A stretch of 64,000 bases of DNA from Longilinea arvoryzae (GTDB taxonomy: Bacteria > Chloroflexota > Anaerolineae > Anaerolineales > Anaerolineaceae). A program made the translations under genes and the position numbers. A model generated the notes under the pieces. The model did no database searches and was not told where the DNA came from. It saw only the letters and a list, made by a program, of their open reading frames with translations. Shown piece by piece: positions 7,581 to 30,351 of the stretch. Each line of letters starts with the position of its first letter. The stretch's first letter is position 1. The stretch spans positions 1-64,000 of the forward strand of contig NZ_DF967972.1 in the NCBI RefSeq assembly GCF_001050235.1. Direction: 5' to 3'.

Positions 7581-9497
7581 TCAGTCAGGAATTAACGGCT
7601 TTGCAAGCGCCTTTTCCAGGCGATTGCGAGCTTGAGCGGACTGGCCGATCAGCTCTTGATAGGGGTTAAGGTCGAGATTTTCCTCCTGATCCTGCAAATC
7701 TTCCTGTAAGAAACGGATTTGTTGGATGCTCTGGTCGATCTTCAAAAGTCTCAAATCCATGATCGTGCGCACCAGGTCCTCGAAGCGTTTTTCAGAAGTT
7801 GGCTCGCCATAAGTCATATCGACGGTCAGCGCCTGCCAGGTATCCTCCAGGGAATCCGGCAGATTTTCCTGCAGGTACTTATTGATTTCCAACCGGTCCT
7901 GGGCCATCGATTCCAGCAGCAGATGGACGATCTGCTGGTGATCGCTAAGTTCGAAGTCGGCCTCTGAAAAACGCCCCAGGCCGTTTTGTTGTAAGAAACG
8001 ATCCACCTGGTAAATAATATCCGGTTGGCGCAGCAGCAGGTGCAGGCAGTGCGCTTCCATGGCGGCGGCGCGCTGCCCGGACGTGGCCGGAATGGCCTGC
8101 GTGCGCCGACCCGGGCGTTCGGTCTTGATGACCGGTTTGCGGCGCTGGCCGGGCGCGGCTGCCGGAGCAACGCCCTGCAGCGCACGCACATCCACCTTCA
8201 ACATGCGCGCCAGACGCTGGCGATAGGTATCCCTTTCCACCGGGCTGGGCACATCTTCGATGAGCGGCAGCACCTGCGCCGCCACCTCGGTCTTCGTCTT
8301 GGGATCCTCCAGGTCGCGGCCGGCCGCCAGCGTATCCATCACGTGGGCCACGATGGGTTTGGCCGCCTCGAGGATCTTGCGCCATTCTTCCGGATCGCGC
8401 AACACCACCTCATCCGGGTCCATACCCGGCGGCAGGGTGGTGACGCGCACATCCGCCTGCAGGCGCGCCTCATGGCGCAGCAGGCCGCGCGCATCGAAGG
8501 CGATCTCGTCGTTGTGATCCAGCGACTGGCGGGCGATTTCCAGACCGCGCAGGGTGGCCTTGTCACCGGCTGCGTCGGGGTCCAGCGCCAGCACAAACCG
8601 GCGCGTGAAGCGCTTGAGCAGGCGCATTTGATCCTCGGTCAGCGCGGTGCCCATCGGTGAAACCGCGTTGCTGAAACCCGCCTGGTGCAACACGATCACA
8701 TCCAGGTAACCCTCGACGATCACGACCTGGTCCTGGCTGCGGATCATCTTGCGCGCCTGGTCCAGACCGTAGAGCAGCCGGCCCTTATCGAACAGCGCCG
8801 TCTGGGGTGAATTGAGGAACTTGGGGACGTCATTGGGGTCGAGGATGCGCGCGCCAAATCCGGCCATATGGCCCATCGCGTCCCGGATAGGAAACATGAT
8901 CCGGTTGCGGAAGCGGTCGTAAGTGCCTTCGCGTTCCTGGCGTTCGGTGACCAGCCCGGCCCGCAGCATCTCGTCATTCGAATAGCCCTTGCCGCGAAAA
9001 TACTGCAGCGAATTTTCCCAACCCTCCGGGGCGTATCCCAGGCCGAAGGTCTCGATGGTTGCCTGCGTCAGGCCGCGTTTGGTCAGATACGCCAGGGCCG
9101 GCTGGCCGGCGGGCGTTTGCAGCAGGTGGTGGCGGTAGAAATTGACTGCTTCCTCCAGCAGACCCTGCAGGCGTTCGTTGACCTGCTCGGTTTGCTGGCG
9201 TTGCGGGGTAACCGGTTCGAGTTGCACCCCGGCTTTTTCGGCCAGGAAACGCAGCGTCTCCGGAAAATCCCAGCCTTCCTTCTTCATCACGAAGCGGAAG
9301 ATATCCCCGCCCTCGTTGCACTGGCCAAAGCAGCGCCAGGTGCCCGATTCGGGGAAAACGACGAAGGCCGGCGTGCGGGTATTGGTGTGAAACGGGCAAA
9401 ACCCGGTGTAGTTTTTACCGGAACGGCGCAGTTTCACCGTCTCGGACACCAGGTCAACAATATCGATGCGCGATTTGATATCGTCAATCGCCGTCAT
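7581..9497 (-). CDS. dnaG: DNA primase DnaG
   Basis: The 638-residue protein makes RNA primers for DNA replication. The N-terminal zinc domain contains C34, H37, C56 and C60 (CPFH; CFGQC). The second cysteine pair is spaced C-x3-C rather than the common C-x2-C. The TOPRIM catalytic core follows, with VIVEGYLDV and [10 protein letters not shown] (about residues 255-320), then a C-terminal region (about 450-638) expected to bind the replicative helicase. It is upstream of rpoD with a 35-base gap, the conserved macromolecular synthesis arrangement. The start is ATG preceded by GAGGTGAGTGA, a good ribosome-binding site. TAGAAT about 17 bases upstream of that site may be its -10 element. Confidence 0.97.
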
Positions 9498-28003: not shown

Positions 28004-28031
28004 TTGACAGTACCCTCCGAACTCATACAAT
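28004..28031 (+). promoter_or_regulatory. Strong sigma-70 promoter of the ilvE leader
   Basis: TTGACA (28004-28009) and TACAAT (28026-28031) are separated by 16 bases. Transcription should start near 28037-28039, about 28 bases before the leader peptide ATG. Confidence 0.8.
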
Positions 28032-28065
28032 TGGGGAAATTTATCGTCGGATTCTCCCTCTTTTC

Positions 28066-28143
28066 ATGTACAACTCAAACGGCCTTATTCTTACCCTCCA
28101 TCTGGCTCTGCTTATTCCGAGCCTTTTTCAGCATGGGCGGTGA
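28066..28143 (+). CDS. Leu/Ile-rich leader peptide of the ilvE attenuator
   Basis: This 25-codon frame starts with MYNSNG and contains LILTLHLALLI at codons 7-17: six Leu and two Ile in eleven codons, seven Leu and two Ile in total. It ends with QHGR and TGA at 28141-28143. It lies between a strong promoter and an intrinsic terminator directly before ilvE, which makes branched-chain amino acids. The composition and position are those of an attenuation leader peptide, whose translation rate reports charged tRNA-Leu and tRNA-Ile. I see no clear ribosome-binding site (only CGGA 16 bases upstream), which is a weak point. There is no valine codon. Confidence 0.72.
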   Translation: MYNSNGLILTLHLALLIPSLFQHGR

Positions 28144-28212
28144 GTGCCAGGCCATTTCGGATCGCAGAAGGATCTACCCCACCAAATAACCGCCCTCCGG
28201 GCGGTTTTTTTA
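28135..28212 (+). promoter_or_regulatory. Attenuator: antiterminator segment plus intrinsic terminator before ilvE
   Basis: Terminator: AACCGCCC (28188-28195) pairs with GGGCGGTT (28199-28206), 3-base loop, followed by a T-run to 28211. Antiterminator: GGGCGGT at 28135-28141, which spans the leader stop codon, is an exact complement of ACCGCCC (28189-28195), the 5' arm of the terminator. A ribosome stalled on the Leu/Ile codons (28084-28116) would leave 28135-28141 free to pair and block the terminator. A ribosome reaching the stop codon would cover it and let termination occur. Confidence 0.75.
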
Positions 28213-28234
28213 TTCTGTTTATCGGAGGAGCCCC

Positions 28235-29155
28235 ATGTCGATTGCTGATATTCGTTATATCTGGATGGATGGTAAGCTGGTCGAACCGCAAAACGCCACC
28301 GTGCCTTTTCTGAGCACGGCGCTGCATTACGGGTTATCCGTGTTCGAAGGGATTCGTTGTTACGACACCGCCCGCGGGCCGGCGGTCTTTCGCCTGCGCG
28401 AGCATATTCACCGCCTGTTCGATTCGGCGAAGGTACTCGGCTTTCGCGACATACCCTACAGCGAATCCGAGCTTTGCGAGGCCGTCAAAGAAACCGTGCG
28501 CGCCAACCAGATGCGTTACGGTTACATTCGACCGCTCATATATCACGACTCACCGGATTTTTCCTTCAACCTCGGCGGCGGTTCCGCCCACGTGGGCATT
28601 GCGGCCTGGCCGTGGGGCGCCTATCTGGGCGAAGAAGCCGCCGAAAAGGGCGTGCGCGCCAATGTCTCTTCCTTCCTCCATCATCACGTCAACGTTACTA
28701 TGACCAAGGCCAAGATCGGTGGAAATTATGTCAGCAGCGCCCTGGCGAAGACGGAATCGATCCGCCTGGGCTTCGATGAGGCCATCATGCTCGACCCGCA
28801 GGGTTACGTGGCCGAGTGCAGCGGCGAGAATCTGTTCCTGGTCCGCGGAAAACGCATCCTCACCCCGCACAGCGCATCCATTCTCGAAGGCATCACGCGC
28901 GATACCATTCTCACGTTATGCAGCGACCTGGGCTACACGGTCGTCGAGGAGCCCGTCAGCCGGGACCAGCTCTACATTGCCGATGAGGTATTCTTCAGCG
29001 GCACGGCCGCCGAACTGGTGGCCGTTACCGAAATCGACTTTCGAACCATCGGCAGTGGGCGCATGGGAACGGTGACACGCCAGATTCAACAATCCTTCGG
29101 CGCCGTGGTGCGCGGCGAGCACCCGCTTTCAGAAGGTTGGCTGGCCTACCTCTAG
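28235..29155 (+). CDS. ilvE: Branched-chain amino acid aminotransferase
   Basis: The 306-residue PLP enzyme catalyses the last step of leucine, isoleucine and valine synthesis, or the first of their breakdown, with 2-oxoglutarate/glutamate. It has the fold-IV aminotransferase signatures: HYGLSVFEGIRCY (about 31-43), the PLP lysine K160 in TKAKIGGNY, E174, and YVAECSGENLFLV with TPHSASILEGITRD. Length and motifs match IlvE rather than D-amino acid or lyase branches. The ribosome-binding site GGAGGAG is four bases before the ATG. It is a plus-strand gene between two minus-strand transporter operons, with its own promoter and attenuator, so it is likely regulated by leucine or isoleucine supply. 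Confidence 0.93.
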   Translation: MSIADIRYIWMDGKLVEPQNATVPFLSTALHYGLSVFEGIRCYDTARGPAVFRLREHIHRLFDSAKVLGFRDIPYSESELCEAVKETVRANQMRYGYIRPLIYHDSPDFSFNLGGGSAHVGIAAWPWGAYLGEEAAEKGVRANVSSFLHHHVNVTMTKAKIGGNYVSSALAKTESIRLGFDEAIMLDPQGYVAECSGENLFLVRGKRILTPHSASILEGITRDTILTLCSDLGYTVVEEPVSRDQLYIADEVFFSGTAAELVAVTEIDFRTIGSGRMGTVTRQIQQSFGAVVRGEHPLSEGWLAYL

Positions 29156-29247: not shown

Positions 29248-29282
29248 AAATCTCCTTGCCGGGATGACCGGCAAGGAGATTT
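29248..29282. terminator. Bidirectional terminator between ilvE and the second Opp operon
   Basis: A perfect 15-bp stem (29248-29262 with 29268-29282), 5-base loop. On the minus strand it is followed by a run of seven T, and it lies 28 bases after the last Opp permease stop. It also serves the convergent ilvE transcript. Confidence 0.88.
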
Positions 29283-29310: not shown

Positions 29311-30351
29311 TTACGACTTGCCGCGCATTCTCGGATCGAGCACGTCGCGGACGGCATCGCCGACCAGGTTCCAGCCCATGACAAAGAACATCAAGATCAG
29401 GCCGGGCCACACGACGATGTACCAATAGTGCTGCAGGCTGGTGATCCAGTTGCGGGCAAAGCTGAGCAACTGGCCCCAATCCGCGTAACCGAGCGGGCTG
29501 CCGATGCCCAGGAAGGATAGGGCAGCAAAGTTGAGCACCACATCGCCGATGCCGAGTGAGGCCAACACCATGACCGGGAAAATGGCGTTCGGCAGAATGT
29601 GGCGGAAGAGGATGCGGCCGTCCTTGACACCCACCACCCGCGCGGCCAGGACGAAATCGCGTTCCTTGATGGAGAGGATATCACCGCGGATGACGCGGGC
29701 ATAGGTCATCCATCCGAACGCTGTAATGGCCACGATTGGCGGGAACAGGGTCTTTCCCAGGATTGGCGTCAACACAGCCGACAGGATCAATGCCGCCAGA
29801 ATATACGGCAGCGTCATGAAGATATCGACAATGCGCATGAGGACATTATCAATGATGCCTCCGTAATAGGCCGAAAGGGACCCGATGATCACGCCGATCA
29901 AGAAAGTGGCGACAACCACAACAAAGCCGGTTTTAAAGGCCGTGCGCGTGCCCCAGATGAGCCCGTAGAAAATATCGTACTGGCCCTGGGCGGTGCCCAG
30001 CAAATGCACCCACTTGGTCTTGCCCGTCAGCGGCGTGTACCAGAATGGGATATCCGGCGCGTTCTTTTTCCATTCGGAGCCCATTGGTTTCGGTTCATTG
30101 CTGAAGCCGTCGCGAGGGATCTTGTACGGATCCTTGGTGACGGGCGGGCAAATGATCGGAGCCGCCAGGGCGATGATGATGAACAGGATGATCAGGATGA
30201 ACCCAATCACCGAGGCCGGCGTCTTTACCAATCCACGGATAATCCGGTAGTTTTCAGGACCCAGGAAACGTTCAAGGCGTCCGATCTTGCGAACCGGCAG
30301 CGCATCGCGCAGCAGGCTGTTATCACCCACAGGTGGATTTGCTACAGTCAT
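29311..30351 (-). CDS. ABC permease (OppC-like), system 2
   Basis: The 346-residue permease has an N-terminal cytosolic part (LGPENYRIIRGLVKTPASVIGF), a first helix (about 46-70), an outside segment, and the BPD_transp_1 core with five helices. The EAA loop reads KERDFVLAARVVGVKDGRIL. It ends GDAVRDVLDPRMRGK, typical of OppC/DppC. It starts ten bases after the OppB-like stop and is the last gene of its operon, followed by a strong terminator. Confidence 0.93.
   Translation of the reverse strand: MTVANPPVGDNSLLRDALPVRKIGRLERFLGPENYRIIRGLVKTPASVIGFILIILFIIIALAAPIICPPVTKDPYKIPRDGFSNEPKPMGSEWKKNAPDIPFWYTPLTGKTKWVHLLGTAQGQYDIFYGLIWGTRTAFKTGFVVVVATFLIGVIIGSLSAYYGGIIDNVLMRIVDIFMTLPYILAALILSAVLTPILGKTLFPPIVAITAFGWMTYARVIRGDILSIKERDFVLAARVVGVKDGRILFRHILPNAIFPVMVLASLGIGDVVLNFAALSFLGIGSPLGYADWGQLLSFARNWITSLQHYWYIVVWPGLILMFFVMGWNLVGDAVRDVLDPRMRGKS

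Follow-up and report, generated by a model that had tools for sequence, protein, structure and literature searches.

A predicted ribosome-mediated attenuator before ilvE in Longilinea arvoryzae and its relatives among the Chloroflexota

In Escherichia coli, the leaders of the ilvGMEDA operon (ilvL) and of the leuABCD operon represent the classical mechanism of attenuation with Leu, Ile and Val control codons, and the ilv operon includes both ilvE and ilvD. Unlike the leaders that are described here, those of E. coli have a good ribosome-binding site and a different hairpin layout, and they come from a different phylum. In Listeria monocytogenes, the attenuator Rli60 precedes ilvD of the ilvDBHC-leuABCD-ilvA operon and is supported by a reporter as well as by mutants of the start codon, the ribosome-binding site and the terminator (PMC5864092). 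It resembles the present family in having ilvD as the first gene (as in most relatives of our locus), one upstream promoter, a leader peptide for branched-chain amino acids (BCAA) and a terminator/antiterminator switch. However, its leader has a ribosome-binding site and it acts with CodY, whereas our copy precedes ilvE alone; the comparison is one by description. The uORF of the Corynebacterium ilvBNC operon, or ilvB-II motif, lies before ilvB and was described in Corynebacterium only (PMC10272879); it shares a BCAA-rich uORF, a terminator and attenuation with the present family, again when compared by description. The leader peptide of Corynebacterium glutamicum is reported to be formed without a ribosome-binding site (Morbach 2000, cited in PMC10272879), which is a precedent for the leaders of the present family. 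Further structured leaders before ilv genes are the ilvB-OMG motif, which likewise has uORFs that are rich in BCAA and Thr codons, and the ilvD motif, which was described only in Veillonella (PMC10272879, PMC8632094). No Rfam family (T-box, ilvB-OMG, ppGpp and other riboswitches included) matched our locus or 20 of its relatives at the gathering score. The mechanism itself is thus well known, while its occurrence in the Chloroflexota is apparently undescribed: the literature that was searched yielded no account of attenuators in Chloroflexi, in agreement with the original prediction, and the survey of Lopatovskaya 2010 may include some.

The leader of ilvE and its predicted switch

The window, i.e., the whole stretch that was analysed, comprises the first 64,000 nucleotides of contig NZ_DF967972.1 of Longilinea arvoryzae, a member of the Anaerolineaceae (Chloroflexota), a family that includes Ornatilinea; the genome (4.4 Mb, two contigs) is 97.8% complete with 5.2% contamination. 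The original prediction, which was made from the sequence alone, had placed a ribosome-mediated attenuator before ilvE, and its promoter, leader frame and pair of complementary heptamers were exact on re-reading. The sigma-70-type promoter TTGACA-16-TACAAT (28004-28031, plus strand, as for all of the leader features; hexamers at 28004-28009 and 28026-28031) matches the consensus in 11 of 12 positions and is the top-ranked site within 10 kb. Downstream lies a leader peptide frame of 25 codons (28066-28143; ATG at 28066, TGA at 28141-28143) that encodes MYNSNGLILTLHLALLIPSLFQHGR and is not preceded by a Shine-Dalgarno-like motif. Its control codons (28084-28116), CTT ATT CTT ACC CTC CAT CTG GCT CTG CTT ATT, encode L I L T L H L A L L I. 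Two parts were added to those already proposed: a hairpin, P1, GGCTC-(10 nt)-GAGCC, within the codon run (28104-28123), which is probably a pause hairpin, and segment 1 (about 28081-28105), which is the partner of the antiterminator strand in the ribosome-free minimum free energy fold. The antiterminator strand itself, segment 2 (GGGCGGT, 28135-28141), overlaps the final leader codons and the stop codon and pairs with 28189-28195. The intrinsic terminator (segments 3 and 4, 28188-28206, AACCGCCC-TCC-GGGCGGTT) has the arms ACCGCCC (28189-28195) and GGGCGGT (28199-28205) around a TCC loop, and its T-run extends to about 28211; it was thus found as proposed. The ribosome-binding site GGAGGAG (28224-28230), which was read directly, leads into ilvE (28235-29155), whose 306-aa product exceeds the curated cut-offs for a branched-chain amino-acid transaminase (NF005146, 396 bits against 279; TIGR01122, 386 bits against 245.6), as expected from the original assignment. 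The gene upstream of the leader is on the opposite strand, and therefore the terminator does not serve that gene. Beyond ilvE, a 15-pair terminator-like hairpin with a T-run is present on the minus strand (29248-29282), shortly past an ABC transporter permease gene whose end is at 29311.

When the mononucleotides of 28039-28180 were shuffled 3000 times, a frame comparable to that of the leader (15-40 codons with at least eight Leu, Ile or Val in 11 codons) arose 24 times; because homologues exist in many relatives (see below), the question of chance can be regarded as settled. The antiterminator duplex was calculated at -15.6 kcal/mol compared to a mean of -10.4 in dinucleotide-keeping shuffles (p 0.005).

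The consequences of ribosome position were evaluated with a model in which the RNA under the ribosome is masked codon by codon and the formation of the antiterminator before the 3' arm of the terminator is made is scored; the model is crude, with a fixed 12-nt margin and no pairing across the ribosome. In this model, the probability of the antiterminator was 0.90-0.99 with a ribosome at any codon of the Leu/Ile run and 0.00 when it had reached the final four codons or the stop. It was also 0.00 without a ribosome, because segment 1 then holds the strand. The family medians had the same shape along the leader, and in some relatives the antiterminator would form without a ribosome. With the full-length RNA at equilibrium, the terminator was favoured at every ribosome position, and antitermination must therefore be kinetic. 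Kinetic switching is the usual assumption for attenuators.

We consider it very probable that ilvE is under a classical ribosome-mediated transcription attenuator and that its transcription rises when charged tRNA-Leu or tRNA-Ile runs short; the leader would be translated, a ribosome would stall and an effect on ilvE would follow. In the proposed sequence of events, RNA polymerase would initiate near 28038 and a ribosome would translate the leader. If it stalled on the Leu/Ile codons, segment 1 and P1 would be melted and GGGCGGT left free to pair with the emerging ACCGCCC, so that no terminator would form and ilvE would be transcribed. A ribosome that reached the stop codon would cover GGGCGGT and allow the terminator to form; without a ribosome, GGGCGGT would be held by segment 1 and the terminator would likewise form. 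Read-through that depends on the charging of the matching tRNA is what the model predicts. Of the features by which an attenuator is recognised, the locus combines a short leader frame with many codons for the amino acids of the regulated gene (eight Leu or Ile in 11), an intrinsic terminator between the leader and the structural gene, and a mutually exclusive antiterminator that would be freed by stalling and covered on completion. Default termination without translation is indicated for this copy by folding, in which several relatives differ.

A covarying leader family in the Anaerolineales

The comparative analysis was based on the DNA upstream of ilvB in 100 genomes of the Anaerolineales. 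In most relatives, ilvE is the final gene of an operon that begins with ilvD and ilvB, and it lies immediately 3' of leuB (ilvD-ilvB-...-leuB-ilvE). A scan for terminators downstream of a frame in which 10 codons included at least seven for Leu, Ile or Val yielded 82 convincing leaders, to which a covariance model later added 12. Of the 95 operon regions with sufficient length for a leader, 94 thus have a homologous one; five other regions stop at contig ends, and one locus (L258) is a candidate from the scan only. The leaders precede ilvD, or ilvB in some families, and share one layout, in which a promoter and a frame rich in Leu, Ile and Val, with a hairpin inside its codon run, are followed by the antiterminator strand and the terminator. 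The frame is also kept with ilvE, as the original prediction required: the leader stands before the operon of which ilvE is the last gene, and before two further ilvE genes that stand alone. Typical leader peptides are MNTIFTLSLIVVLLAVLIIKDLFLVRMATVRVQK and MSFGLALFILVLIGVLVIENLFPVWAARRCEVNA, and the best 12-codon stretch consists on average of 38% Leu, 26% Ile and 22% Val. The relatives would accordingly monitor Leu, Ile and Val; monitoring of Leu and Ile alone, as originally proposed, holds for the window copy, which has no Val codon. Pairwise identity was 0.77 at the second codon position, where T prevails, compared to 0.45 and 0.46 at the other two, and of 68 gaps between the run and the antiterminator all but two were multiples of three. 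Such conservation by codon position and in threes is expected for a translated frame, and translation of the leader is predicted on these grounds. A strong promoter was comparably placed upstream in 82% of 72 family leaders and in 19% of shuffles. A 4-nt Shine-Dalgarno-like motif was found in 18% of the leaders against a background of 9%; the lack of a clear ribosome-binding site, which had been named as a weak point of the locus, is therefore a trait of the family.

Since the loci were picked by frame and terminator and the antiterminator was not a criterion, the antiterminator could be tested independently. For 72 non-redundant leaders, the stretch after the codon run was paired with the 5' arm and loop of the terminator. 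The duplexes had a mean of -19.1 kcal/mol for own pairs and -14.1 for foreign pairs; the observed sum was never equalled in 5000 random reassignments (about 14 sd), and 90% of the leaders reached p 0.05 against their own shuffles. The signal was weak with the 5' arm only and clear when the loop was included; in most relatives, the antiterminators extend into the terminator loop.

Covariation was assessed in an alignment of 53 leaders, and, because related sequences were counted as separate, the following counts are to be taken as support and not as exact probabilities. The terminator helix was paired in 96.9% with nine of nine pairs changed on both sides, and the antiterminator helix in 73.6% with 11 of 12. 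The hairpin in the P1 region, which lies inside the codon run just 5' of the antiterminator strand, was folded in 52 of the 53 leaders with five of its seven pairs changed on both sides. For P1 and the antiterminator together, 16 of 19 pairs were doubly changed, which none of 500 shuffles equalled and which was the top of seven registers. P1 also accounts for the Glu-Ser, Glu-Asn or Lys-Asp that recurs downstream of the run. The classical geometry of alternative helices, as inferred in the original prediction, is thus one that covaries and matches sequence by sequence in the relatives.

Within this family, the window copy has the lowest content of Leu, Ile and Val codons (eight of 12 compared to a median of 10), its P1 is weaker (-7.3 kcal/mol), and its 7-bp antiterminator, also named as a weak point, is at the short end of a range in which many members have 9-14 bp. 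The window copy is also an exception in the place of its antiterminator strand: most relatives have about 20-40 nt between this strand and the leader stop downstream of it, so that a ribosome at the stop would cover the strand incompletely there.

A covariance model, R1, was built from 53 sequences. The window scored 62.8 bits, with E 7.0e-11 over the genome, in a match that includes P1 and the terminator and is partly by construction because the window is among the sequences of the model. A second match in this genome (E 3.6e-4) is independent of model building. This second attenuator (locus L263, G000:C1:2902975-2903138, minus strand) lies before a livK-type importer gene, which encodes the binding protein of a branched-chain amino-acid-type ABC transporter, and has its own promoter (TTGACA-16-TAAAAT), the leader MLLSLCANFILLVWFRMYYANRFQAGWQLEVKVQSKQALHRG and an 8-bp antiterminator of -15.2 kcal/mol. 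A third match (610862, E 0.018) was rejected for want of a good P1 or gene context.

Apparent pathway loss and alternative explanations

The identification of ilvE stands, whereas the proposal that its product makes exactly the amino acids that the leader monitors was only partly upheld. Single-model searches of the nearly complete genome found no acetolactate synthase (ilvB), no dihydroxyacid dehydratase (ilvD) and only a sub-threshold match to ketol-acid reductoisomerase (ilvC). No leuA was seen: by inspection, the two HMGL-like hits resemble a homocitrate-type synthase in one case and a carboxylase-type protein in the other. With the rest of the Ile/Val pathway not found, ilvE does not complete a working pathway here. 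Synthesis of branched-chain amino acids from pyruvate is probably beyond this bacterium, in which ilvE would act in the salvage of 2-oxo acids.

Three cases of an ilvE that stands alone behind a leader were found: in the window, in genome G024 (L003/L180) and at locus L050. In G024, the other such member of the family, there was no ilvD and no convincing ilvB; a 400-bit match to ilvB was rejected as acetolactate synthase, being below the cut-off and in a gene cluster of the surface-sugar type. For the window genome and G024, the simplest history is that the middle of the operon was lost and the leader and last gene were kept; in the window, they appear to be what is left of the two ends of the operon in what seems to be an auxotroph. 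L050 (in G744, with the same coordinates as in G233) belongs to a prototroph in which the attenuated ilvD operon is complete and an attenuated ilvE is present elsewhere as well; since the whole operon is kept, the leader was duplicated there and operon loss is no explanation. A single origin of the three genes was not supported by the ilvE tree (three changes; 0% of bootstraps with one).

This history makes it conceivable, if rather unlikely, that the leader is a relic of the attenuator of the lost ilv-leu operon, transcribed without working as a switch, whose terminator merely lowers ilvE expression. The missing ilvB, ilvC, ilvD and leuA, the poor codon run and weaker P1, and the fact that the other two genomes of the genus (G001 and G002) are without any close ilvE would agree with this, and partial decay of the window copy, with its lowest branched-chain codon content, is possible. 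However, the promoter, the frame, a perfect 7-bp antiterminator and a perfect terminator are all intact, the terminator and antiterminator still match (p 0.005), the classical ribosome logic is kept in the model, and a second family member persists before an importer in the same genome.

Control of the terminator by something other than leader translation, such as a metabolite-binding RNA, a protein or a T-box-like tRNA sensor, would also fit a structured leader before an amino-acid gene. It is very improbable, given that no Rfam family matches the window or the 20 relatives, that conservation is at the level of codons (second position T, gaps in threes) and that the strongly covarying helices of the family are P1, the antiterminator and the terminator. 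Short frames and terminators are common, and the terminator-like sites of the 10-kb region are no more numerous than in shuffles, which would suit a coincidence of an ordinary terminator and a random open frame. Such a coincidence is scarcely credible, being contradicted by the comparative data: the homologous arrangement recurs across the order with covariation, the covariance model matches the window (7e-11, partly by construction), and the terminator cannot be assigned to the divergent upstream gene. Attenuation of ilvE by leader translation, which we prefer, has its own points against it: the low Leu/Ile/Val content without a Val codon, the weaker P1, the 7-bp antiterminator, the leader without a Shine-Dalgarno motif, the preference of the full-length RNA for the terminator at equilibrium, the distance between antiterminator strand and leader stop in most relatives, and the fact that the pathway that ilvE would limit was not found in the genome.

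Reach of the family and its meaning

Matches to R1 were found in 58 of 400 sampled Chloroflexota genomes, a low estimate because the filters were strict and the model was built from Anaerolineales, and one in which the weakest matches may be due to chance. Twenty further matches in the family, mostly chosen away from ilvD, were inspected. Close livK relatives were downstream in 10 (one of them in G002, of the genus of the window) and a distant one in another; the remainder preceded ilvD (three), citramalate synthase (one), an uncharacterised ECF transporter component (two) and a tryptophanase-like gene (one), and the context of two was unassigned.

Several of these loci deserve description in their own right. 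At L052, two complete attenuators (8780-8925 and 8936-9089) are arranged in series at a contig end, and L214, L219, L255 and L355 have serial pairs of complete attenuators, each with a leader frame and a terminator, before ilvD. At L354 (397-1261) and L368 (442-1395), a BCAA-type leader and terminator precede a gene for the substrate-specific component of an uncharacterised ECF transporter. At L363, on the reverse strand, the attenuator (leader at 398-502 when the locus is reversed) precedes citramalate synthase (TIGR00977, 708 bits), which is an alternative route to isoleucine. At L362 (492 onward, G028), the R1 match lies between ilvE and a gene like tryptophanase or tyrosine phenol-lyase.

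Taken together, we lean towards the view that the Chloroflexota have a widespread BCAA attenuator family of their own, which originally governed the ilv-leu operon and, in species without the pathway, was put to new use in a starvation regulon that covers uptake and salvage (livK importers, the ECF component and stand-alone ilvE), in places with two complete attenuators in series. Strong comparative evidence extends classical leader-peptide attenuation to the Chloroflexota and defines a searchable RNA family that is absent from Rfam. The ECF transporter component with a leader at L354 and L368 is predicted to import branched-chain amino acids or their precursors. Less expected were the tandem copies and the same switch on importers in apparent auxotrophs, and the family illustrates what may become of a biosynthetic switch after its pathway is lost.
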